NCBI RefSeq assembly: GCF_021134715.1
Contig: NC_060026.1
Span: 14,685,001-14,749,000, forward strand
DNA from: Daphnia pulex
Taxonomy: Eukaryota; Arthropoda; Branchiopoda; Diplostraca; Daphniidae
Direction: 5' to 3'
Length of the DNA stretch: 64,000 nt
Position 1 is the first letter of the stretch; every line of letters begins with the position of its first letter. Shown here piece by piece: positions 8,417 to 46,286 of this stretch. Both the position numbers and the translations under genes were made by a program. The notes under the pieces are model-generated. The model made no database searches. It was not told the DNA's origin and was given only the letters and a program-made list of their open reading frames with translations.

Positions 8417-9410
8417 TTACACAAGTCTGGGCTTTTTCTCTGGTGGAGGTTTGTTGGCTTGAGGTTCTGTTTTAACTTCTACCTTAACTTCGACTTTAGT
8501 ATTTTCTTCTGTTAATGCTCTTTGTTCGGGTTGTTGATTGGTAGCTGGATAAGGAGTATTTTTAAGAGGAAACTTTTTGGCAAGGTCAGCAAGCAAAACG
8601 TTAACTCGATGCCTTTGGAACATGGAACCACTCTCCTCCTTTGCTTTTTCCTTCGAACTCTTTTTCTGTGCTTTCTTCTCATCTTCATCTTTCGATTCTG
8701 TCTCCTTAAACTCCCACCAATAACCTTAAAAATACCAAAATGATAATAAAATTTACTTAAAAAATGTAAGAAATTGTATACCTTTGCTTGGGTGATATCT
8801 TGAGTATGTCCTAGCTTCATCAAAAGCCCCTTGGAGATGATTGACTGTTGTAGACTGATTGAAAAAAAAATTCTAATTAGTTTAGACTGATACTAGAACA
8901 TTTTCCGATTTTCTTACAATTCGAGAATTGATCACAGAACCAAGATCTGGTGCTTGATAGACTACACCAGCAATAATGTAGAAATCTGCAAGTGGAGTAA
9001 CTACAGCTGCAGAATGCCTATGCTGCTTTCGAATTACATACAAAATTGGTTCTTGAACATGAAGAAGCATATACTCAAGTCCTGTCAAGTTACTGTTGAA
9101 TTTTATAAATGATTAATAGTAAAGTTTTAATTGAATGTGGTTTGTAATATACTTGAGGTGTTCCATATTGAGACGCTGCATTTTGACAATTTCATTGTTG
9201 CAAGTTCGATCATAGAAAGGGTTTGTAGTTGACTGAAAGTAATCCATTACATTGGTAGGATTAAGAATGGGTATCCAAGCAGAGTCATGCCAAGAAATCC
9301 ACAAAAGGTTATCTAGAATGCATGGAGGGAAAAAAGTTGTTTTTACATAATGGCCGATTGAATTGAGGTTTCCTTAGAGAATTGATGACCCACCTTTAGA
9401 ATCACCCATT
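8417..9410 (-). CDS. MED6: Mediator complex subunit 6
   Basis: Head-module subunit of Mediator, which links activators to RNA polymerase II. Exons 9395-9410, 9153-9312, 8918-9092, 8782-8854 and 8417-8724 give 243 aa (human 246). Conserved blocks: [86 protein letters not shown], then [17 protein letters not shown] and a charged tail ending EKKPRLV. The first coding exon is only 16 bases (MGDSK plus one base). The gene is tail to tail with GMPR, with 175 bases between the stops. Very secure. Confidence 0.96.
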
Positions 9411-9888
9411 TCGAACCAAATTATATTCCTCCTTGTTGTTTGAACTCAAATTGATTTACACAAATTTTCATACGAGTGTGTAAACAACAATAATTTTATT
9501 TTGAAGTATAACGGTAAGAAATTAAGGCCTAGCTTAGAAATGCTACAAACAGTCAAGCAACGCCATCTATAAAAATCTTGAAACCAGAAAACAAGAGAAT
9601 GGAATGGCCGCACAATTTTATCGTGAATTTTCGGTGGGAAAACGCTTTTCGTTTTGCCTTTTTGATCTTTTTTTTTTTCTTTTCACTTTCATTTACCAGT
9701 TATTTCCCCCATCATTTGCCTAGCGCAGAAATAGCAGAATTAAGATAATAATCAATTGTGGTTATAATTGTATTTCTTTAAGTAAAATCAGGGGTTTTCT
9801 AAGAAGAACAATAAGATTGAAGATTATCAAGCAGGTTGAAGTTAGAATTTAGTTAAAATTTTGATGGAAAATTTCCATTTGTTATGAA
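9411..9888. other. Gap between MED6 and the C1q gene
   Basis: 478 bases holding the MED6 promoter and the 3' end of the C1q gene. It contains CGCCATCTAT at 9561-9570, one of several CTCF-like words in the window. No open frame of note. Confidence 0.5.
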
Positions 9889-30210: not shown

Positions 30211-32201
30211 GCCGGTCCACCCCGACTTCCGTATCAACCCGACCCACAGTCATATTCCAGACAGATGATCCTCAGCAATGATTATCTGTTATCGCAACAA
30301 ATGGCAGATCGAAATCGCGGTGGAAGGGATCGAGAACTACTCGGAGGATCTTTACAACCTCAAATGCCCGTCACCTCGAGACCAAACGATCGACAACCTC
30401 CGCCTCCCCCTTCTCACCCAGCGTATCAACACAGACCTCCGTCGCCCATGTATGTGCAAAAACTTCCTTCCTACGTCATGGATCAACACCATGGCTACCC
30501 TTCGCATTCGAGTGGTGGTGGACTCCCTCCTCCACTCCAACAACACCAGCCCCCACCGCAGCACCAACAGCCGCCTCAACCCCAACAGCAGAGGCAAGGA
30601 GTCATCCAGCGAAATTCGTCCGTGCCTTCAGCGCGCCAACCTGATCCACGACCGTCCCCGCCCGCTCCCAACCCGTTACAGCAACAAAATAATCAAGGGC
30701 GGACATCTTCGCCGGGTGGACTCCTTAATCTGGGACCTGGAGGAGGAGGTCTCCATTCCAGCAGCCGACCCAATTCGATTGTCGGTGGTGCTCCTCCCGT
30801 TTCCATTTCTCCAAGGGGCGACTCGATTTACGTGCACGACGCATTCGCTTCGCTGGTCAACGCTGCCGCCGCTCAGCCGAGTCTTCCTGTTCCGGATCGT
30901 GATCGAAGGGATCGTGAAAGAGAGAAGGAAAGAGATCCAAGAGGTCATCTGCAGTCTTTGCCCGTTTCCAGGTAAATTAACGCAAACATTAATTTTGATG
31001 AAGTAGGATGTCATGTAACATGTTTTCTGCTTTGATTAAAAGGTCAATGCATCCGGATAGAAGAGAAGAAGCAATGGAGCGAACCATGGCGTACCAACGG
31101 GAGTCGCCTAAAATTGCCAGCGGCCCTCCAGGACAATCCAGTGCTGGCGGTGCGCCCGGTGGTGGTGACTCTACGCTAACGGCCGCCTCTCTCATCGACG
31201 CCATAATCACCCATCAAATCAATCAGTCTTCGAATCCTAACGATATGGTTGTCACCAATTCCAAAACCAGCAACGACAGCTTCTACAATCGGTTTAGGAG
31301 GAATGCTAGTCCTGTCGATACACGTGGAACGAGTTTAGATCATCCCCGTGCTGGACACAAGGAACAACAGCGCCATGAAGACGCACCTCCGCCATCATCC
31401 GGCATTCCGCCGCAACAACGGCCTCCTTCGTCGTCTCCTTCATTGCCCCCGCCACCGCAAGGATCCTCAAGCAAAGCTGCTTTTACATTAGGAGAACATA
31501 TTGAATCCATCATTGCCAAGGATTTCCATCAAGGATCTGGAGGAGGAGGAATGCCCATGCCCGGCGAGCAAGATTGGGGACCAGAATGGCAACGGCGTCA
31601 GGCTGAGTTTTCGAAATCCCGTATGGCAGCTCCCGAGTCCTTGATGAACGATTACGTCAAGAGCCGTGCAGCCCTTGATTATGCTGCCAAATGTCGGGCT
31701 GGCGAAGGGCAACAGATGCAAGATTATGGTCTACTTCGAAGTAGTGGTGGCGGTGGAGGAGGGGGAGAACCTGATCCTCGTCAACCCGCCATCTCCCCCC
31801 TTGACTACGTCAAGAAAAAGATCGTCGAAGTGATGCGGACTTCTTCAGATGGTGGTATTCCAGCCGGAGGAGGAGGTGGTGGTGGAAGTTCCAATCACGA
31901 AATGGCGCCACCAAGTTCACCTGCTGGCCGACGTGGAATCAGTCCAGCTCCATCGCCCAACAAAAGACCACGCATGAACGAGGATGAAAGAGGTGGACCC
32001 TCTCCAGTTGTACCGCATTATATTTCAACACCTTATCCATCCATGGGTTATCCATATTCTATCCAGCCTAACGTCCCCATGAGCAGCAGCGCTCCAACTG
32101 CCGTCACCTCCGCATCGACCAGTTCGACTGGCAACCAAACAACAGGCCAGCCAGTTGTTTTGCTATCCTCTCAATATGAACCTCTCTCAGATGAAGATTG
32201 A
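24730..32201 (+). CDS. Smrter: N-CoR/SMRT co-repressor (Smrter)
   Basis: Nuclear scaffold that joins unliganded nuclear receptors to HDAC3. Eleven exons (24730-24881, 24964-25906, 25972-26511, 26594-26761, 27015-27170, 27241-27820, 27892-28067, 28145-28336, 28403-29248, 29332-30971, 31043-32201) give 2183 aa. In order: [24 protein letters not shown] coiled coil, [21 protein letters not shown] with LPLYHQPSD (deacetylase-activation region), [18 protein letters not shown]1 ([42 protein letters not shown]), a 21-Ala tract, a Cys-rich module ([24 protein letters not shown]), two SIMQGTP/SITQGTP repeats, poly-Gln tracts, CoRNR-like boxes [23 protein letters not shown] and [12 protein letters not shown], and the terminal [11 protein letters not shown] that matches the N-CoR C-terminus. 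A second SANT domain was not found. The start may instead be 24799 or a Met in an unseen upstream exon. Confidence 0.95.
27433..27495 (+). repeat. Poly-alanine tract (GCN repeat) in Smrter
   Basis: 21 Ala codons in a row with mixed GCT, GCC, GCA and GCG, so encoded by an interrupted repeat rather than by a pure trinucleotide run. It follows SANT1 directly, where vertebrate SMRT has a Gln tract. Confidence 0.9.
29680..29733 (+). repeat. Poly-glutamine tract 1 (CAR repeat) in Smrter
   Basis: 18 Gln codons mixing CAG and CAA. The complementary frames give long spurious poly-Val/Ala frames on the minus strand. Confidence 0.9.
30118..30210 (+). repeat. Poly-glutamine tract 2 (CAR repeat) in Smrter
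   Basis: About 30 Gln codons interrupted by a single His, mixing CAG and CAA. It lies between the SITQGTP repeat and the conserved [15 protein letters not shown] block. Confidence 0.9.
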
Positions 32202-33316
32202 TGAAAACGTAACAAAAAAAAAATATATTTAAAAAAATTTGAAAAAAAAAACTTTAAAAAAAAAACTAAATAACAAAAACAAAAAAATCTAATAATAAGC
32301 ACGCTCTTCTTCTTTCCACTGAGCTTTGTAATTGGCTCTTTTGACGGCCAATACAAGGAACTGGATGCTGAACAACGGATCGCTTTGTTTCAGGTACTCA
32401 AATGAGTTGTTTCAATCCAGCAACTGAATTCTAAAACAAAGCTACACCCCTCCCCCATCATCATCCAACATCGTCTCTACTCCTTTGCCTGTTAACTTTA
32501 TGTGGTTCGTTCATCATCATGTTGTCTTTGAATTGGCTGATTCTTTCTCGAATCATCCGCAACCTTTCCGATAAGGTGTTGACTCGTTTTTTTTTTGGTT
32601 TCTACTTGCCCATATTTTTTTTTGGTATGTATGTGTGTTTTTGAATGACTTTTGAAAGTCTGTATGTGTGTGCATGCGTGTACCGCAAAGCGTTTTGTCA
32701 TTGATAACTGGAAGAAAAAGGAATCTTGGATGTACATTATGTGTGTATATTCTGTTGGATTTGGGACACAGGAGTGAATCGGTTCCAATACATGACCGAC
32801 ATTTTTTACGTGATTTCTTCTATATATTTTTTAAATTGTCAAACAAAGGTCAATTGGTTATTCATGTATTCAAATTTATAGTTGAATTGAATCGGTACGA
32901 GAAATCTTAAAATTTCGTCATGAAAACAAACAAATGAAGCGTGCGCAATAGGAGCGGCAAAATGTTTCGAACTTGTTCGAACTGCGTTGATCGAAAGATA
33001 GGTAGCGTTGCTGAGCTCAGCCTAGTCGGCGTCGGCCATATTTGAAAGAATCGAGAAGCAGTTACGTGTCTCGTATTTCCCGTTTCTGGAATATTTAATT
33101 GAAAGATTGATCTTGTCTATTTTCTGGAATCGTCGGCTTTTATTTGCTTCACTGGTTAATTTGTCGAAAGAAGGTGTTTGACTTGTCCGTTTGTTTCACT
33201 GTTCAAACCAGACAAAGGAAAAGATTTAGTATGGCTTCTGAATTTCATATACCAATTCAATGCAAATTCATTCTTTTTATCTTGTTTTTCTACAAAAATA
33301 GGTCTCAATTCCAGCA
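32202..33316. promoter_or_regulatory. Smrter 3' UTR and promoter of lola module 1
   Basis: 1115 bases. 32206-32300 is a very A-rich stretch that may contain the Smrter poly(A) site. From about 32408 onward the sequence is repeated at high identity at about 36059-36940, so this is the left part of a duplicated promoter/leader unit of the BTB gene. Confidence 0.6.
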
Positions 33317-34455
33317 ATGGATGCCGAAGAATTCTGTGTGCGGTGGAATAACCATCACCATGTTTTAGTTAGTGTCCTTGACAAATTATTGGAGAAGGAA
33401 TCTATGTGTGATGTGACTCTTTCCGCTGACCATCAATTTGTTAGAGTTCACCGACTAGTATTGTGTGCTTGCAGCAACTACTTTGAGGTTAGCTAATTAC
33501 TATTTTTTTAGATTATGGTAATTTGTATTCAAATGCTTTTATTTATTTTCCAGGAAATGCTGAGCAAGCAAGTCGACAAACAGGCATTCATATTCTTAAA
33601 AGATGTCAGTTTCCCAAATCTCAGGGCACTGGTTGATTACATGTATAAAGGAGAAGTAAATGTTGCCCAGGAACAACTTGTTAGTTTTTTGCAAACAGCT
33701 GAAGCCCTTGATATCAAAGGTGAGTTATTTTTTAACATTGATCCTACCACATAGATCCAATTTTGCGCTCTTGCAGGATTGGCATACAAAGAAGGTGACC
33801 AGTCTAAATTCAAATCTGGTCAAAATGCAAGGACTAATGCTGCCAAGAGAACATTAAGTGAATCAACATCAACTCCGTCAGTTGTATCGACTCCCAGCAA
33901 TTCTCAACGACCCGAAAATGACAACATTTCACACACTCCTTCTCAGAACCAATCATCCTCTAGACCAAAACCGCCTCCTCCCATGAAAGCTCATGTGGTA
34001 CCATCGGAATCTCCTACACATCCAGCGAACACAGACTTAGATGACCACTTTGTTGTAGTCGATACGAAAATGGAATCGGAATTAGAATCTGACCACATAG
34101 AAGACCAAATAGATAATAACGGACCAGAATCATCACGGGTATGTGTTAAAAGAGTGGCTGAACTTTTCTTAATAATGTTAATTTTTAATTTTTAAAAATC
34201 CCAGGACTGTGACGACGACTGGAGCACATCTGACAACGGCATGATATCCATTGTACCCAACTCGACCCGCGATATTACCTTTGGTAATATATAAACTCCC
34301 AGTCATAGTTTATAACACACCCGTATTTTTAAAAATGTATTTTTTTTTATTCCAAGGCCCCTCTACATCAGACACGCGAATGGGAGACAATGTTGCCGGA
34401 CCCTCAGGAACACAACCCAAGGCTAACAATTCATCTAGCGGCGCAGCATCTCGAG
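33317..34455 (+). CDS. lola: lola-like BTB common exons, module 1
   Basis: Five exons (33317-33487, 33554-33719, 33777-34138, 34205-34283, 34357-34455; 877 bases) encode a shared N-terminal part of 292 aa that ends in splice phase 1 (AASR then one G) and needs a 3' exon to finish. The BTB domain is of the lola/tramtrack/broad type: [76 protein letters not shown] Ser/Pro-rich, then acidic linker follows, with [14 protein letters not shown] and [13 protein letters not shown]. Compared with module 2 it has Val for Leu in FCLRW, Ser for Ala in TLAAD and Asn for Asp in FPDLRAL; the module 2 residues are the usual ones in this BTB class. Likely a nuclear transcription factor. Its 3' partner may be the exon at 35103 or the downstream finger exons. 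Confidence 0.85.
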
Positions 34456-35102
34456 GTAGGCATTCCTCTTCAATATTAGTCCTCTACTTAGTGCTAGATT
34501 CTCTCTCGTACCGTAGTCTGCTCTCTTTTTGATCCGCCTTCCTTCAGCCCCTTAGAAAACAGAAAGACCGCCTTGGTGTCGTTGTTCACGACATTCACGT
34601 GGATGAACTTGCATTAGTGTCCCGAATCAGGTTTTTTTTTTTTAAATTCCTTCAGTCTTGCAACATATCCCTTATTAATAAAACTTTAAGATGGTTTTTT
34701 TTTTTAAATTTCAATCATTGAACTTTAAGTTTAAAAATAGGAAAATATTAGTTGAGCAAACTAAACGTAAATGCAAATAACTTGTAAGGATATCAAACTG
34801 TGAATGAAAAATCCCACAGGATTGCAGTTGCGAAAGGGAAGTGTTGATACGAGGTTATTCGACACGAGGTGATTTAAAAGGGTGCCACATACACACCGTT
34901 TCTGTCTGATTGTTTTTACCCCACCAAAAAAAAACACGAAAGAACATTGCTCCATCAACAACCTTATTTAAACGGTTTTTTCAAAACCTGTAAAAAATGT
35001 CAGAAAACGTTGTTGGCATACCGTTTAGTAACGGAATGCTGATTAGTGGGGCTGACGCCCATACCATGAACTAATTATTCATTTTATAAAAAAAAAATGC
35101 AG
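34456..35102. other. Intron-like gap after lola module 1
   Basis: 647 bases. The first 215 are shared with the region after module 2; 34680-35102 is unique to this copy, AT-rich, with several A and T runs and no convincing gene. Confidence 0.5.
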
Positions 35103-35500
35103 AACTAAGAGCGAAAAGAAATGAAGAAACACTGGGAGCGAGGGAATTGAGATTGCGTGCTGTTAGGGAACGTTACGCCGCAAGGAAACGTAATAAAACC
35201 CAAGAAGAAAATATCCTATATCGGGCTGAACAGGCTAAACGACAACGTAAAGCACGTCAACAGGAAACGCCCGAAAAGAGAGAAGAAAGACGCAGAAAAA
35301 ATAGAGAATACTATCAGATTCGACGTGCAGCAGAAGAAGCCGAAGCTGATCTTGCGAGAAGACGCGTAGAAGAAATGCATCAAGGAATTCGTCTTACTGA
35401 AGAAAAACAGGAGGTGGCGGGATTAATCGTATTTCTGGCCTCTACATCAGACACGCGAATGGGAGACAATATTGCCGGACCCTCAGGAACACAACCCTAG
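35103..35500 (+). CDS. Arg/Glu-rich candidate terminal exon of lola module 1
   Basis: An open stretch of 132 codons beginning after a TGCAG acceptor and ending at a TAG. Spliced to the phase 1 donor at 34455 it reads in frame (877 + 398 = 1275 bases). The first 110 residues are a highly charged, probably helical region: ELRAKRNEETLGARELRL, RERYAARKRNKTQEE, then RQQETPEKREERRRKNREYY and RRAAEEAEADLARRRVEEM. The last 20 residues ([19 protein letters not shown]) are a third copy of the lola fifth exon, fused in frame and cut by a stop. The R-x-x-ETPE-x-R-x-x-R style resembles repeats at the N-terminus of some Helitron-encoded proteins of arthropods, which is an inference. The acceptor has a poor, A-rich pyrimidine tract, so use of the exon is unproven. 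Confidence 0.45.
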
Positions 35501-35584
35501 GCTAACAATTCATCTAGCGTCGCTGCATCTCGAGGTAGGCATTCCTCTTCAATATTAGTTCTCTACTTAGTGTTGTTATTAGTC

Positions 35585-36067
35585 TTTGCCCGTTTCCAGG
35601 TAAATTAACGCAAACATTAATTGATGAAGTAGTATGTCATGTAACATGTTTTCTGCTTTGACTAAAGGGGAATGCATCCGGACAGAAGAGAAGAAGCAAT
35701 GGAGCGAACCATGGCATACCAACGGGAGGCGCCTAAAATTGCCAGCGGCCCTTCCCTCCCCGATCAGGACAATCCAGTGCCGGCGGTGCGCTCGGTGGTG
35801 ACTCTACGCTAACGGCCGCCTCTCTCATCGACGCCATAATCACCCATTGAATCAATCAGTCTTCGAATCCTAACGATATGGTTGACACCAATTCCAAAAC
35901 CAGCAACGACAGCTTCTACAATCGGTTTAGGAGGAACGCTAGTCCTGTCGATACACGTGGAACGAGTTTTGATCATCCCCTTGCTGGACACAAGGGACAA
36001 CAGCGCCATGAAGACGCACTTCCGCCGCAAAAACGGCCTCCTTCGTCGTCTCCTTCAGTTTCAATCT
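35585..36067 (+). pseudogene. Fragment of the Smrter 3' end
   Basis: A decayed copy of the end of Smrter exon 10, the 71-base last intron and the first part of exon 11 (source 30955-31440). It keeps [17 protein letters not shown] and [25 protein letters not shown], but small insertions and deletions and a TGA in place of a CAA codon in the CoRNR-like LIDAIITH region break the frame. The copy stops inside the Pro/Ser-rich part and joins directly to sequence matching 32408, so the receptor-binding end and the stop are missing. Confidence 0.85.
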
Positions 36068-36940
36068 AGCAGCTGAATTCTAAAACAAAGATACACCCCT
36101 CCCCCATCATCATCCAACATCGTCTCTACTCCTTTGCCTGTTAACTTTATGTGGTTCGTTTATCATCATGTTGTCTTTGAATTGGCTGATTCTTTCTCGA
36201 ATCATCCGCAACCTTTCCGATAAGGTGTTGACTCGTTTTTTTTTGTTTCTACTTGCCCATATTTTTTTTTTGTATGTATGTGTGTTTTTGAATGACTTTT
36301 GAAAGTCTGTATGTGTGTGCATGCGTGTACCGCAAAGCGTTTTGTCATTGATAACTGGAAGAAAAAGGAATCTTGGATGTACATTATGTGTGTATATTCT
36401 GTTGGATTTGGGACACAGGAGTGAATCGGTTCCAATACATGACCGACATTTTTTACGTGATTTCTTCTATATTTCTTTTAAATTGTCAAACAAATATTAA
36501 TTGGTTATTCATACGTATTCAAATTTATCTAGTTCAATCGGTACGAGAAATCTTAAATTTCGGCATGAAAACAAACAAACCAAGCGTGCGCAGGAACGGC
36601 AAAATGTTTCGAACTGCGTTGATCGAAAGGTAGGTAGCGTTGCTGAGCTCAGCCTAGTCGGCCATATTGGAAAGAATAGCGAAGAGCAGTTTACGTATCT
36701 CGTTTTTCCCGTTAGTTTTGTTTCTGGAATATTTAATTGAAAGATTGATCTTGTCTTTTTCTGGAATCGTCAGCTTTGTTTACTTCACTGGTTAATTTGT
36801 CGAAAGAAGGGGTTTGACTTGTCCGTTTGTTTCACTGTTCAAACCAGACAAAGGAAAAAGGTTTAGCATGGCTTCTGAATTTCATACAACTTCATTATTT
36901 TTATCGTGCTTTTCTACATAAATAGGTCTAATTTCCAGCC
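36068..36940 (+). promoter_or_regulatory. Promoter and leader of lola module 2
   Basis: Near-identical copy of 32410-33316, with small indels. It includes the GCTGAGCTCAGCCTAGTCGG stretch (about 36639-36661) kept in both copies. Both copies keep an ATG with the short frame MASEFH before a possible leader intron that ends in an AG just before the BTB start codon. Confidence 0.55.
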
Positions 36941-38077
36941 ATGGATGCAGAAGAATTCTGTTTGCGGTGGAATAACCATCACCATGTTTTAGTTAGTGTT
37001 CTTGACAAATTATTGGAGAAGGAATCTATGTGTGATGTGACTCTTGCCGCTGACCATCAATTTGTTAGAGTTCACCGACTAGTATTGTGTGCTTGCAGCA
37101 ACTACTTTGAGGTAAGCTAAATATTATTTTCGTAGATGCTGATGGCAATTTTTTATGCTTTTATTTTCTTTCCAGGAAATGCTGAGCAAGCAAGTCGACA
37201 AACAGGCATTCATATTCTTAAAAGATGTCAGTTTTCCAGATCTCAGAGCACTTGTAGATTACATGTATAAAGGAGAAGTAAATGTTGCTCAGGAACAACT
37301 TGCTAGTTTTTTGCAAACAGCTGAAGCCCTTGATATCAAAGGTGAGTTATTTATTAACATTTATCCTACCACATAGATCCAATTTTGTGCTCTTAAGGAT
37401 TGGCATACAAAGAAGGTGACCAGTCTAAATTCAAATCTGGTCAAAATGCAAGGACTAATGCTGCCAAAAGAACACTAAGTGAATCAACATCAACTCCGTC
37501 AGTTGTATCCACTCCCAGCAATTCTCAACGACCCGAAAATGACAACATTTCACACACTCCTTCTCAGAACCAATCATCCTCTAGACCAAAACCGCCTCCT
37601 CCCAAGAAAGCTCATGTGGTACCATCGGAATCTCCTACACATCCAGCGAACACAGACTCAGATGACCACTTTGTTGTAGTCGATACGAAAATGGAATCGG
37701 AATTAGACTCTGACCACATGGAAGACCAACTAGATAATAACGGACCAGAATGGGCATCACGGGTATGTGTTAAAGAGTGGCAGAACTTTTCTTATTAATG
37801 TTAATTTCAATTTTAAAAAATCCCAGGACTGTGACGACGACTGGAGCACATCTGACAACGGCATGATATCCATTGTACCCAACTCGACCCGCGATATTAC
37901 CTTTGGTAATATATAAACTCCCAGTCATAGTTTATAACACACCCGTATTTTTAAAAATGTATTTTTTTTTATTCCAAGGCCCCTCTACATCAGACACGCG
38001 AATGGGAGACAATGTTGCCGGACCCTCAGGAACACAACCCAAGGCTAACAATTCATCTAGCGGCGCAGCATCTCGAG
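36941..38077 (+). CDS. lola: lola-like BTB common exons, module 2
   Basis: Five exons (36941-37111, 37176-37341, 37398-37762, 37827-37905, 37979-38077; 880 bases) encode 293 aa with the same domains as module 1 and the same phase 1 end. The BTB keeps canonical residues ([36 protein letters not shown]), so this copy is probably the one under stronger constraint. Exons 4 and 5 and the intron between them look identical to those of module 1, and 34251-34532 and 37873-38154 translate to the same 93 residues. It lies directly before the zinc-finger exon array; all nine array exons start in the phase that its donor requires. Confidence 0.9.
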
Positions 38078-38437
38078 GTAGGCATTCCTCTTCAATATTA
38101 GTCCTCTACTTAGTGCTAGATTCTCTCTCGTACCGTAGTCTGCTCTCTTTTTGATCCGCCTTCCTTCAGCCCCTTTTGAAAAACGCTCTGGTGTCGTTGT
38201 TCACGACATTCACGTGGATGAACCTGCATTAGTGACCCGAATCAGGTTTCTTTTTCTTGTTTTAATTCCCTCAGTCGTGCAACATTACTTTTATAAGCAG
38301 ACACGCTGAAGATGTCTAGTTTTTATTGAACCCGGAAGAGGAAGAAAGGGTAGATAGACAGAAATTAGGTTTCATAGCTAAAGAAAAAACCAAATATTCC
38401 GAACTTGACGGGTGACTTTCTCCGAATTAATGTATAG
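38078..38437. other. Intron after lola module 2
   Basis: 360 bases; the first 210 match the region after module 1. Nothing else recognised. Confidence 0.5.
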
Positions 38438-38697
38438 GTGACTTTTTGGACGTACCCGTGGACGACAGTCACGACACGAATCGAATGATTGCCCCGGCAG
38501 TCTCGGCAAGGGGTCCTGCAACCGTTTGTCCGCGATGTTCGGTCAGGTTCCTTCGGGTTAGTGCCCTGGTCGCCCACTTGCATTCGAACAAATGCGACTC
38601 GGTGACTATGTTTAAGTGTCCTTTAGCCTCGTGCACTTTCACCACACGCCACCAAGGAAATCTCAAACGACACTTTTTGAAGTGGCACCCTTTATGA
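38438..38697 (+). CDS. lola: lola alternative 3' exon A (two fingers)
   Basis: Begins after TGTATAG; with the G left by the common exons it reads GDFLDVPVDD, then a C2HC-type finger CPRCSVRFLRVSALVAHLHSNKC and a C2H2 finger CPLASCTFTTRHQGNLKRHFLKWH, ending HPL. Its second finger has four residues between the Cys pair, unlike the other exons. 880 + 260 bases is a whole number of codons. Confidence 0.85.
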
Positions 38698-38958
38698 ATC
38701 AAATGCAAATTAAATTCACTCAACAATTCTTATTTTTGTCCCTCCATTACCTGTGCTGTTTCTCTTCAATAAACAGAACTCAGATTGATTTTTTGTAGAC
38801 ACAAAATCTGTCAAATCAAACGACCATGCGAAAATTGAATACAGGCAGCAACTCTTTTTGAAATTTTGACCAATTAATTTTGAGCAAAGTTATTTTGACT
38901 CTTTCTTTTTTCTCATTGGTCCCTTGTTTTTGTTTTTTTCTCCCAACTCTTCTGTTAG

Positions 38959-39320
38959 GGTACGACATGGACGATCAGTCTCTTGACGAACGCTTCGGTT
39001 GCCCGAATTGCCGGCGGAGTTATAAGCATAAGAAACATTTGTACCGCCACCTGCGCCAGGGATGCGATGAAATGACGTCGGAAGCGGCGGCGGCGGCGGC
39101 TGGCCAACGCGACGGCCTATCCAGTCATATTCCCATCTTCCGTTGCAGCTTGTGCTCGTATACCACGTACTTGAGGGCTTCTCTGTTTCAGCACACGCAA
39201 ATCGAACACGAACAAACGGTTATTCCTCCCTCTCTGCGCGCCAGTTCTATCCACTTTCTTTTGAATTCCTCTGCGACGCAAAACGTTCCAGTTGTAGATA
39301 AAAATACGTCCCGATTGTAG
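38959..39320 (+). CDS. lola: lola alternative 3' exon B (two fingers)
   Basis: Reads GYDMDDQSLDERFG, then CPNCRRSYKHKKHLYRHLRQGC (C2HC) and CSLCSYTTYLRASLFQHTQIEH (C2H2), with a run of seven Ala between them. The tail of about 35 residues is the longest in the array. Confidence 0.88.
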
Positions 39321-39514
39321 ATGATTAGAATAAGAAGAAATCCAGTTCGAAATAAAAATGTGTTAAAATGTAAGAAAAAACAAGAAATTGATTTCGATTA
39401 TTTTCTGACTACTACCGCGAGTACTTGGGAAATCATTAAATCTGATTTCTCTGTTTGTTTATTTTTTTATTTTTATTTTTTTTCTCTTTAATTTCACTCG
39501 GTTGCTGCTGGCAG

Positions 39515-39783
39515 GCGTCGCTGAGGACGTGCTCCAAGGTCGCCATGCTTGCCCCAATTGCCATCGGACTTATAAGCTTAGAAGACTCGTGTTCCGTCAC
39601 CTGCGCAAGGGCTGCGATTTAGCGACAACGGAAACGATGGCCAATTACCACGGATACAAAACTCCGCTTCCCGCATTCCGTTGCAATTTCTGCCCTTTCA
39701 TTACGTTCATTAGGGAATTCCTAAAAACACACAATCAAAAAGAACACGGCGGCGATTGCCAACCGAGTTTGAAACGCGCTTGA
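39515..39783 (+). CDS. lola: lola alternative 3' exon C (two fingers)
   Basis: Reads GVAEDVLQGRHA, then CPNCHRTYKLRRLVFRHLRKGC and CNFCPFITFIREFLKTHNQKEH, ending SLKRA. It is close to exons D and G, pointing to tandem exon duplication. Confidence 0.88.
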
Positions 39784-39976
39784 ATCGCTTGTTCTTGTAT
39801 TCGTTTATTTTAAAAAAAAAAGTATCGATGTGAAATCCTGCCGATGAGATTCTGGATCTTTTTGATTTTTGTTTTCGCTCGTGAATGATTTGAAATTTCT
39901 TTTTTTCTTTTCGAATTTGGTTCAAAGTCTCATGGGTGTCCATTGTTGTTTTTTCTCAAATGTTCTGACCATCTAG

Positions 39977-40200
39977 GTGACGAGGTGGACGGTCAATCTC
40001 GCGTCGGTTGCCCCAATTGCCAACGGACCTATAAGTCCAACAAATTTTTGTACCGTCATCTGCGACAGGGTTGTGGCGAAATAGCGTCCGGCTACCGAGA
40101 AGACCTTCCGTGTCATCTGCCCGTCTACCGTTGCCATGTCTGTCCTTACATCACGTTCATTAAGGGATTCTTGCACAGACACTCTCAGACTGCGCACTAG
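39977..40200 (+). CDS. lola: lola alternative 3' exon D (two fingers)
   Basis: Reads GDEVDGQSRVG, then CPNCQRTYKSNKFLYRHLRQGC, the shared spacer GEIASGY, and CHVCPYITFIKGFLHRHSQTAH, with the stop right after the last His. Very similar to exon G. Confidence 0.9.
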
Positions 40201-40448
40201 ACCGTTGAGACCTCAATTATCTAACCAGCGGCTGCCCCCCATCTTTGCTCTTTCTTTCTTGGTCCACTTTTGACTCACTACTCACTAGCAACTCTCTCCG
40301 GTTTCACCTAGAGAATCCATTTTTTTGAAATGCGACTAATACAAGTCCCCAGTTGAATGAATCGGTATTTTTGATTATACATTTATTATTTTATTTTATT
40401 ATCAATCGTTCTCTCTTACGTTTCTGTCAAATCCTCGATGGACAGTAG

Positions 40449-40603
40449 GTGATCAAGATCAATCGAGGGTGTCTTGCCCGGCTTGCTGTCGGACTTGCAA
40501 GGATAGGCGAAATTTGTTAAACCATGTACGTTACAGCGCCAAGTGCTATCGACCGAAAATCTTGCAACTCCTCGGACTTAGGCCGAGAAACAACCTCGTC
40601 TGA
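40449..40603 (+). CDS. lola: lola alternative 3' exon E (single finger)
   Basis: Reads GDQDQSRVS, then one finger CPACCRTCKDRRNLLNHVRYSAKC, followed by a basic tail ending RPRNNLV. The second C2H2 finger is absent, so this would be a one-finger isoform or an exon losing function. The phase and the total (1035 bases) are still right. Confidence 0.75.
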
Positions 40604-40871: not shown

Positions 40872-41320
40872 GTGATGACGGGAAGGACAATCGAGTCATT
40901 TGCCGGGTCTGCCATCGGACTTATAAGTCGTGGAAAAATTTGTTGCAACATTTGCGCCGGGACAACACGGGCTGCGCACAACCCAACCTCATCTCGCTCA
41001 TCCAAGAAAATCGCAGAGTCTCGTATAGGGACTTTGCGCGAACCCTGGCCATCGAGGCCGACCCTGAAGCTCACCAACCCCTGATCAAATGCCCCAATTG
41101 CCATTTCAGTTACAAGTTTAAGAAGGATCTGTACCGCCACTTGCGCATGGGCTGCGACGCCATGACGACGGCGACGACCGTCGGCTCCCGCGACGGCCAG
41201 CTGTGCGACTTGCCCGTCTTCCGTTGCAATTTTTGCCCTTACGTCACTTTCGTCAAGTCGTCCGTGCGCAGACACGTTCAAAGCGCCCACAGCAATCGAT
41301 CCCACAATGCGACTATTTAA
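40872..41320 (+). CDS. lola: lola alternative 3' exon F (three fingers)
   Basis: Reads GDDGKDNRVI, then CRVCHRTYKSWKNLLQHLRRDNTGC (related to the first finger of exon H), about 45 residues of linker, then CPNCHFSYKFKKDLYRHLRMGC and CNFCPYVTFVKSSVRRHVQSAH. The longest array exon; it looks like two exon units fused, the first having lost its second finger. Confidence 0.85.
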
Positions 41321-41443: not shown

Positions 41444-41706
41444 GTGCCGAAGTGGACGAGCAAACTCGAGTTGTTTGCCCCAATTGCCATCGGACTTATA
41501 AGTACCGAAAACTCTTGTATCGCCACCTGCGACAAGGATGCGGAGAAATAGCTTCCGGTTACAGCCAAGACCAGCCATGCCCTCTGCCTGTCCACCGTTG
41601 TCCCTTGTGCCCTTACATCACATTCATAAGGGGATTTCTAAACCGACACGCCGTCACCGCTCACGGCCAAACCTCCATGCATCCGTCTTCTTCTTCCCAT
41701 TTGTAG
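41444..41706 (+). CDS. lola: lola alternative 3' exon G (two fingers)
   Basis: Reads GAEVDEQTRVV, then CPNCHRTYKYRKLLYRHLRQGC, spacer GEIASGY, and CPLCPYITFIRGFLNRHAVTAH with a short Ser-rich tail. Closest relative in the array is exon D. Confidence 0.9.
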
Positions 41707-41877: not shown

Positions 41878-42170
41878 GTGACGAGTCGGGCGTCTATCTA
41901 TCTGGGCGAGTCAGTTGCCCCGTCTGCCGTCGGAATTATAAGTGTAGGAAACATTTGTTGCAACATCTTCGCCGGAATTACCAGGGCTGTGCTCAGCCTC
42001 ATCCCGGCTTGCTGGTCGGACAGATTTATTCGCACTTGCCCCACTTTCGTTGCTCTTTTCACTCGTGCTCGTACATCACTTTCGTCAAGAAGTTCCTCCA
42101 CGAGCACGCCCTAGAAGCCCACGGCGTCGCCAGCGTCGTTGAAGGACCCGATTTGATGGATAGTCTGTGA
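41878..42170 (+). CDS. lola: lola alternative 3' exon H (two fingers)
   Basis: Reads GDESGVYLSGRVS, then CPVCRRNYKCRKHLLQHLRRNYQGC and CSFHSCSYITFVKKFLHEHALEAH, ending DLMDSL. The first finger has seven residues between His and the last Cys, as in the first finger of exon F. Confidence 0.88.
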
Positions 42171-43330: not shown

Positions 43331-46286
43331 GTAAATATTCTGCATAGTATCTCTTATGTTTCTATCCCTATTAATTTTCTCCGCTTTTTTATTGCCTGTG
43401 TCTGGCTACTACTAACTACTGTACACCATCTGTCGCACGTTTCAAATGATTTTCTTTTTTCTTTCTTCAACGAAATAAGAAAATCTGATTGATGAGTCGT
43501 GACAGTCGGCCTTCTTAGAGACGGGATTTTCTAAGAGAAGACTCAAACACATTTCAGAGAGTCTCCCGGATATGTCTTGTATGCAACTTTCTCTTTGCTT
43601 CCATTTCTTATACGTGTACTCTATATAGCTGGCTGCATCTTTACGATCTGACATGAATCACATGAATCGGAAAATCCCATTCCAGCCCATTTTCTCTCTG
43701 ATGATGTTGTTGTTGTTGTTTTCTAGGCAACCAAAGGCAACCGAGTCGCCTTCGTCTCAACCACCAACTCATAATCTCCCCCGTCTCCAATAAGAAGAAA
43801 GCCCCATAAGCTCTTTTGGGTGTGTGTGTGAACCACATAATTATTCTGTGTGTCCCTCCTGTTTCATACATGTACATACCACCTGCCCCAGCAATTGTTG
43901 GTTCCAACCGACGACGACTCAGATATGTACCTCATAACTTTAACGGATTGGCTCTCTTCTACAATTCGCTCGTTTCAAATTGTCTGGAATTGGCGACGTC
44001 CAAAAAAACAACCAAAAAGAGGCGGATCCTTTCATACACATCGCATATAGTCCGACAACCAAAAAATGCACCTACAAAAAGAATAACAAGCAGTCACTGA
44101 AGGGTTTTACAAGGTTGAACAACCCGCGTGAGTGAGTTGCTGCTACTTATATATCATACCGCGCCTTCGTGATTCGATTGAAGGAGCCTCTCTCCTATAT
44201 GTTTATAACCCCACCAAAAATACAGAAAACCCCAAAGTCTCTGTTCTTCCTATTCATGTGTATTCACGAAATATGTTTTTTTTTTTATTTTTCATTTTTC
44301 ATTTGTTTTGTAATTTTGGTCTTGTTGTCGACTCCGTCCCGACTCACGGTCTGCCGTCGCGGCGGAAAGTTTTGACGTCACTGCACGCAGACTGCTGTTG
44401 ACATTGGTGTTGAACAGTTGTGTTTTTTCGACGTTCGTGCGTGAATGTGAGTGTTCCCCCCCCCTTTCATTGTTTTTCGTGTTGTGCCCTGTTACACACA
44501 GAGATTGACGGAATAAAAAAAAAACGAATTTTATTTCTAAAACCGAATTTAGGCCGGATAATCGTTGCCGGTCACGTCATCGCGTTTTAGAGATTTGACT
44601 TTGTGATGTTGTTGTGATGTTGTGATTTATCCAGGCAAGTTTATTTGTCGTCGTCGTCTATTTACTCGTCATCTTTTTGGGTATTTTGTTCTCCAACCGG
44701 TTTCCGTCCGATTTGTTGGTTTCCGTCCGTCTTTTTCCCGACTTGTTGCACTTTTTTTCGGCTGTTTGTGTTGGTTGTGTGTCCATTTCCGCTGGATTTT
44801 TTGAAGCAAATGACATCACCGTCACGTTGTTATTGTCAGATAATGACACGTGCAAAACTAGTCGTTTATCGCTCTCGACAAAACATCGTTGGGGTTGGTA
44901 CAATGCACATTGTTGCCTTTCGTGAGCGTCGGTTCGCTTTCAGTGTGGCGATGTATATATGGCTCTTGTACACATCTTCACCAGCCTTACATTTTGCTTT
45001 TGTTTGGTTTCAAGATAAGGCGGGGAGGAAATAAATTAAAACTGGTTTGCTGGCAGGAATGTGTAGAGTAATAATCACGGCTGCAGTTGAGTAGTCACGA
45101 CACGCTAGAGATGATTCTACGATGACTATAGTAGTTTGGTGGGAAGATTTTGTTCTTTTTCCGTTTTCTTTCTTTTTGTTTTATTTTAACGAAGGAAACC
45201 AGGTGGTGGTCTCAGCGCCATCTCTTACCGCGTGAATTGATGCTGAACTGATGGCCTGGAATAAAAAAATATTTCGTCGAAACATTAAAAAAAAAAACGA
45301 ACGAAAAATCGTGAAATAAAAAAAAACGGCGGCGTGGAATAATAATTGCTCGTGTAGCGGTTGTGAAAGAATTTTCCAAGATTTCCTTTTCGTGCAGCAT
45401 TTTTATTTCGGTGAATCTCTAGCGTTTTAAATTTCACTCGGCGGGTTATGTAGTTTAATGGGTTATTATTACGGGATTTGGTTGAAAAATCCAATAGATG
45501 GCGCAAGTTGTTTTTATTGATTTCAGCCACTCAAACCTGTTTTTGTTTCAGTGGCCGTGAGAAAAATTTGTCTGCGTGATGTGTGTTATGTGACGTCTCG
45601 TTTTTTTTTTCTCTTTTTTGTCGAGGGGGGGATTCGTAATTTCTTTTATCAGCAATAGACACACACACTAATCGTTTAGAAATTCCTGTCCCTCGTTGAT
45701 ATTTATCGTCGTGCTGCCTTTTCCATCCCAGCGCCGCTCAATTCTAAGCCATTATGCTGGGTGGTTCAGGTTGGTTGGCTTTCAGACCTGTTTAAGCACA
45801 TTTCTCTTCCACTGTTGTTCAAAACTCTCCTCCGCCAATTGGCCGTGCTTTGAAATAAAAAAGAGTCGCTTTTGATTCACTCCAGTCAACAATGAGAAAA
45901 GAAGAAGCAAACATCTTGTTTGAAAGTTGGATAATTAAGGCTTTCTTTCTTGCTCTCGTCTATCACCCAGGACCTCATCATTTGAGATTGCACTGATCTT
46001 GCGCACAGTTGACAGTCCCCTTAGCTGTGTATTTAACCCCCCCTTTTGAAGTACGTTTAATTTCCTTTTTGGTTTTGGGGCTTTGTGTCTCTTTCCATGT
46101 GGGGGAGAGAAGGACAGGTGTGCAGTTGGGAAGCATTTATATTTCTGTTTCCTGACGTTGTATGGTTGTAGGCTATTTAACAGTATTCTGTGAAGCCCTT
46201 GCTCCACATGTATCAAATTGCCATGCGAAATCTGACTACGGTGTGTTGTTTCTCTTTTCCCTCCAGGTTTCACTCACAGCAAGCAA
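43331..46286. other. Gene-poor region before the CCSER-like gene
   Basis: About 3 kb with no coding region that I can support, apart from the small possible exon at 43727-43774. Pyrimidine-rich in places (44270-44330, 44640-44800). It probably carries the promoter, leader exons and first intron of the CCSER-like gene. CTCF-like words GCGCCATCT (45215-45223) and TAGATGGCGC (45495-45504) occur here. Confidence 0.5.

Follow-up and report, generated by a model that had tools for sequence, protein, structure and literature searches.

A lola-like locus of Daphnia pulex carries two tandem BTB-encoding 5' modules ahead of a single array of zinc-finger exons

Here we describe a gene of Daphnia pulex, built like Drosophila lola, in which a 5' half encoding a BTB domain and a linker is present twice in direct order ahead of a single array of alternative 3' zinc-finger exons. 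The gene lies in a 64,000-nucleotide stretch (the window; contig C10, positions 14685001-14749000) of a 133-Mb, 13-contig assembly that was used for genome comparisons, and positions given without a contig are those of the window. A preliminary description had placed two complete 5' modules, each with promoter, leader and five exons, in front of one exon array. Re-examination bears out this arrangement: each module has five open exons separated by GT-AG introns, and eight finger exons follow module 2, while module 1 is without a finger array directly of its own (Table 1). The duplication itself is real, but the block is larger than had been described, since it takes in the tail of the gene upstream. 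The tandem duplication spans the sequence from the end of this co-repressor-like gene, across the leader, to the last of the five BTB/linker exons.

Table 1. Coordinates of the features discussed, in window positions.
Feature	Position	Strand	Remarks
Module 1	33317-33487, 33554-33719, 33777-34138, 34205-34283, 34357-34455	+	BTB and linker, phase-1 donor
Module 2	36941-37111, 37176-37341, 37398-37762, 37827-37905, 37979-38077	+	BTB and linker, phase-1 donor
Copy 1 of upstream-gene 3' end, leader and putative promoter	32409-33316	+	aligns to 36058-36940
Copy 2 of leader and putative promoter	36058-36940	+	from self-comparison; promoter role presumed
Finger-exon array, eight exons	38438-38697, 38959-39320, 39515-39783, 39977-40200, 40449-40603, 40872-41320, 41444-41706, 41878-42170	+	finger frames open from phase-1 acceptors
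Tract identical to module 2	34194-34553	+	360 columns without difference; gene conversion
Insert of dispersed repeats	34667-35438	+	35089-35426 is a fragment of the N-terminal part of a Helitron open reading frame
AATAAA, possible poly(A) signal	34677-34682	+	putative; just past the end of module-1 homology
Third partial exon-5 copy	35439-35572	+	96.3% to exon 5; no acceptor, TAG in frame
Degraded copy of the upstream gene's coding tail	35581-36057	+	source 30953-31442, 89.4% identity

Self-comparison with BLAST aligns 32409-34666 to 36058-38285 at 92.6% identity over 2283 columns (E=0), far beyond chance. Neither module contains a stop codon, and the outgoing phases of the exons are 0, 1, 0, 1 and 1 in both, which agrees with the phase-1 exit that had been proposed for the two. 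The encoded proteins, of 292 (module 1) and 293 (module 2) residues, differ by 10 non-synonymous changes and by one residue absent from module 1, close to the earlier estimate of about eight to ten differences in 290. A one-base loss was also noted at the exon-3 acceptor of module 2 (37390-37397), which reads TTAAG where module 1 has TTGCAG and a further copy on contig C9 (see below) has TTACAG, and which has a lower acceptor score.

The array exons mostly encode pairs of fingers, with a single finger carried by the exon at 40449-40603. Acceptors were chosen by hand where several served one frame, and three more open stretches (ending at 43492, 43656 and 43937) were left out of the array, not resembling finger pairs. 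Four of the listed acceptors (38438, 38959, 41444 and 41878) fall below the 90th percentile of acceptor score, with 38959 at the 44th, by a score that is itself weak evidence, trained on 19 acceptors, many of them paralogous, and without that at 40449. The one array exon that was searched against the genome (41444-41706) had no matches at E<=0.001 beyond this locus and the C9 copy.

A genome search with 36900-38300 listed six matches, namely the query module 2, module 1 at 94%, a complete module on contig C9 at 96%, two pieces on contig C12, and an exon-5 fragment. In the C9 copy (C9:9468482-9472295), exons 1-5 are open and the array is partial and damaged: its matching pieces omit window positions 38928-40018 and 40104-40419, a frame shift affects array exon 1, and the first cysteine of array exon 7 is gone. 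The C12 copy (C12:6218709-6219817) has lost exon 2 and bears frame-breaking deletions; it adjoins a stretch that matches window positions 9289-9497 at 92%. One scan of viral contigs, using residues 1-234 of module 2, yielded no relative.

In addition to the 360-column tract listed in Table 1, the alignment of the two copies contains a second difference-free tract of 201 columns in the leader copy (32625-32825). The longest run in 20000 shuffles averaged 97 columns and never exceeded 239, and the 201-column run has P=0.00085. Over 34205-34553 the C9 copy differs from both modules at 13 of 345 sites and the C12 copy at 15 of 348, so the identity across 34194-34553 is not mere conservation. On this comparison, both tracts have been homogenised between modules 1 and 2 by gene conversion, to which no direction is assigned, and it is through conversion that the donor at 34455 and exons 4-5 of module 1 are identical to their counterparts in module 2.

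Outside the tracts (32848-34204), one 3-nt gap is found in 699 coding sites (18.2 expected) versus 16 gaps in 615 non-coding sites (Fisher P=7e-5, or P=0.0011 with half the expected gaps given to module 1). Over exons 1-3, synonymous divergence (dS) between the modules is 0.069 and non-synonymous divergence (dN) is 0.019; the corresponding values for the BTB codons are 0.105 and 0.015 (dN/dS 0.14). Both controls for frame retention, the copied upstream tail and the C12 copy, are frame-broken, and the reading frame of module 1 seems to have been held by selection. In a three-way, unrooted comparison, copy-specific changes (synonymous/non-synonymous) number 8/9 for module 1, 1/0 for module 2, and 11/4 for the C9 copy; without a root, some of the changes scored for module 1 could belong to the other branch. 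Judged by these alignments, module 1 is the more diverged copy, with a divergence of several percent. The evidence as a whole reads as purifying selection on the BTB part of module 1 for most of the life of the copy, and weaker selection on its linker.

Both modules are recognized by Pfam as BTB domains (E=2e-25 for module 1, E=1.9e-26 for module 2), and BTB chains in PDB match module 2. In TTK-type BTB domains, which reportedly assemble into hexamers and mix widely, the FxLRWN motif is described as forming the first strand and as important in dimer formation (PMC11426971). Near the N-terminus, module 2 (FCLRWN) fits this motif and module 1 (FCVRWN) departs from it at L. The preliminary description had listed three module-1 changes at conserved BTB residues; two of them, L8V (CVRW) and A36S (TLSAD), fall at positions invariant in all 11 other BTB rows counted (one 113-residue row was left out), whereas D79N (FPNLRAL), as well as A100V, falls at a position that varies among the rows. 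L8V in the FxLRWN strand and A36S may alter BTB partner choice.

Between the modules lie the insert of dispersed repeats, the third exon-5 piece, and the degraded copy of the upstream coding tail. The latter aligns over 419 sites with 18 substitutions and 4 gaps (1, 11, 3 and 18 bases), of which the 1- and 11-nt gaps break the frame, and has stops in all three frames; a further 966 bases of the upstream gene's tail (31443-32408) are absent from copy 2. The upstream gene resembles an NCoR/SMRTER co-repressor by a SANT-like stretch, a resemblance that Pfam searches with three open reading frames did not confirm. Two stretches of the insert have at least 9 and at least 51 matches in the genome, self included. 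The fragment at 35089-35426 matches the start of a 1710-aa open frame on contig C2 and is called Helitron because that frame bears Helitron_like_N (2.3e-58) and PIF1 (9.1e-55) in Pfam; it covers only part of the region preceding these two domains and was identified by coding match, not by element ends. Pieces of the inter-module insert also occur in a tandem repeat at C2:12104000-12117500 (unit approximately 4.58 kb, 97-99% identical). A separate tandem repeat, with a unit of approximately 779 bases and approximately 98% identity, was seen at C5:3301000-3304600 and extends beyond the stretch examined.

A shared array offering a two-by-n choice of isoforms, as the preliminary description had suggested, is plausible from the sequence, phase compatibility being the only ground for splicing into any of its exons. 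The phase-1 exits of module 1 fit in frame with the array exons, with module-2 exons 3 or 5, and with the Helitron frame; the joining of module-1 exon 2 to module-2 exon 3 is one such fit. Our preferred interpretation, to which we give a probability of roughly 45%, is that module 1 serves as a second promoter and BTB half of the same gene, feeding the shared finger exons. Two grounds put it first: module 1 has kept its frame, its donor, and each of its five exons, and genes of the lola type already connect a single BTB half with many different ends. Module-1 transcripts might reach the finger exons by skipping module 2, or might join module-2 exons in frame, or trans-splicing might link module 1 to the array, as has been reported at fly lola (PMC4667647, PMC12692577). 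Several observations weigh against this interpretation. En route to the array, module 1 must pass the AATAAA at 34677, which could end its transcripts early, as well as the Helitron fragment and all of module 2. The changes at two invariant BTB residues would also fit relaxed constraint, and the module-1 linker is less constrained than the BTB part (3 synonymous and 6 non-synonymous changes, dN/dS 0.59 vs 0.14), while linker dN/dS between module 2 and the C9 copy is only 0.06. The deficit of non-synonymous changes among those found in module 1 only (9 of 17) is of marginal significance, with P between 0.019 and 0.105 depending on the neutral fraction assumed. Finally, an open module alone is no proof of use: the C9 copy pairs an open module with a damaged array.

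Module 1 could instead be expressed as a short BTB-only protein, through read-through of intron 5 and an end near the AATAAA, and compete with the BTB-finger proteins; we regard this as unlikely, although deserving of serious consideration. The signal is canonical, lies 222 bases beyond donor 34455, and is missing at the same place in module 2, but by a rough estimate one AATAAA per approximately 200 AT-rich bases is unsurprising. Selection is clearest on the BTB codons, and read-through past the donor gives 25 residues and then a stop; that extension is, however, equally present in module 2 and therefore not special, and donor 34455 is intact. A slightly more doubtful account, which likewise deserves consideration, would make module 1 a young, functionless partial duplicate that is still unbroken and is kept near module 2 by gene conversion, in which case it would be an ordinary partial duplicate on its way out. 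Module 1 does bear 9 of the 13 copy-specific non-synonymous changes (module 2 none, the C9 copy 4; unrooted), its linker is relaxed, two invariant BTB residues have changed, and partial copies exist elsewhere (C9, C12, and the exon-5 fragment), with the C9 module open beside its damaged array. Decay of this kind is difficult to square with the near absence of indels from module-1 exons compared with its introns and leader, and with the broken frames seen in C12 and in the duplicated tail of the upstream gene.

Far less probable is that module 1 splices into the Helitron fragment to give a BTB protein that carries a basic repeat domain of transposon origin, and equally improbable is the wider proposal that the locus makes two kinds of regulator, with module 2 supplying BTB-zinc-finger proteins and module 1 a BTB-transposon fusion whose BTB strand is altered. 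From an acceptor at 35103 (132 aa) or 35205 (98 aa), the Helitron frame can be read open in phase 1 and ends inside the exon-5 fragment, but a phase match has a one in three likelihood by chance, and the corresponding AG lies inside the open frame of the C2 Helitron. Among AGs in 1000-63000, acceptor 35103 stands only at the 61st percentile (35205 at the 94th). The best self-match of the fragment, at a lag of 23 residues (17 matches), resembles the STPR domain, which is described as four tandem 23-residue repeats (PMC4821344); lag 23 is nevertheless not the best in the C2 parent stretch tested, and a Pfam search with the fragment's frame gave no family above cut-off. The dN/dS of the fragment against the C2 Helitron is 1.24. 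The phase fits, but neither the acceptor nor dN/dS lends support, and the Helitron exon was rejected as an end for module 1. The high local identity of the two converted tracts might also suggest an assembly artefact joining two haplotypes. This is scarcely credible, because only the 5' part is doubled and the array is single, because copy 2 is without 966 bases of the upstream tail, because the Helitron fragment and the third exon-5 piece lie between the modules, and because similarly diverged copies exist on other contigs (C9 and C12).

If the array is indeed served by both modules, every DNA-binding end would be available with two BTB versions under two promoters, and the locus would provide a natural test of how BTB partner choice is tuned apart from DNA binding. 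A second, altered BTB domain in one cell could shift which complexes form, given the mixing reported for TTK-type domains (PMC11426971). At this locus an exon-array regulator also bears the combined marks of partial duplication, gene conversion, and an inserted transposon.

The gene had been named lola in the preliminary description, a name that is not sustained. The fingers of fly lola are C2HC and C2H2 pairs. The following comparisons used a reconstructed fly Lola BTB sequence and a composed lola-type finger pair. In the BTB search (150 of 159 candidates scored), C6:3189148 came first (62%) and the best match in the window (module-2 exon 1, 55%) was 19th of the 84 listed, partly because introns split its match. 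Identity to the reconstructed fly Lola across the whole BTB domain is 54% for module 2, compared with 63% at C6:3.19 Mb and 62% at C9:4.38 Mb. Orthology to fly lola was therefore not supported, the best genome match to the reconstructed domain lying on C6, and the gene, although built like lola, is better termed lola-like. A search with the finger pair (150 of 220 candidates scored) listed 42 genome matches, none of them in this window. In a 13-row BTB tree, some rows of which were joined by hand, modules 1 and 2 and the C9 copy fall within a clade of eight in-genome rows (99/99), with fly Lola outside. All eight split the BTB domain at or near residue 57, as judged from the ends of tblastn pieces, and the clade's other five loci (C9:4.38 Mb, C9:8.83 Mb, C7:12.19 Mb, and two at C9:7.12 Mb) all adjoin lola-type fingers. 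From the tree and these neighbouring fingers, the gene belongs to a lola-like group that is expanded in this genome. The two rows at C9:7122400-7126800 are minus-strand lola-like BTB parts in tandem, and a lola-type finger exon lies behind each of them.

No description of the locus was found among titles and abstract openings of the open-licence literature, and a paper on a Daphnia pulex BTB gene, in the portion of its text available, concerns a BTB-HTH gene and does not contain 'lola' or 'longitudinals' (PMC13322756). Drosophila lola, as outlined in excerpts of three reports, likewise joins one set of BTB/common exons to many 3' exons, most of them C2H2, and employs trans-splicing (PMC4667647, PMC11426971, PMC12692577); it has one BTB half, whereas here that half is present twice. 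The other lola-like loci of this genome share the BTB clade, the split near residue 57, and nearby lola-type fingers, but at C9:7.12 Mb each tandem BTB part has its own finger exon behind it. In mod(mdg4), common BTB 5' exons are similarly reported to be trans-spliced to alternative 3' exons (PMC12692577, PMC4667647), although most 3' ends there carry FLYWCH rather than C2H2 (PMC4667647). That gene has a single set of common exons. Finally, the locus resembles tandem duplicates that undergo gene conversion in having direct-order copies with perfectly identical tracts, and differs from them in that only the 5' half of an exon-array gene is doubled.

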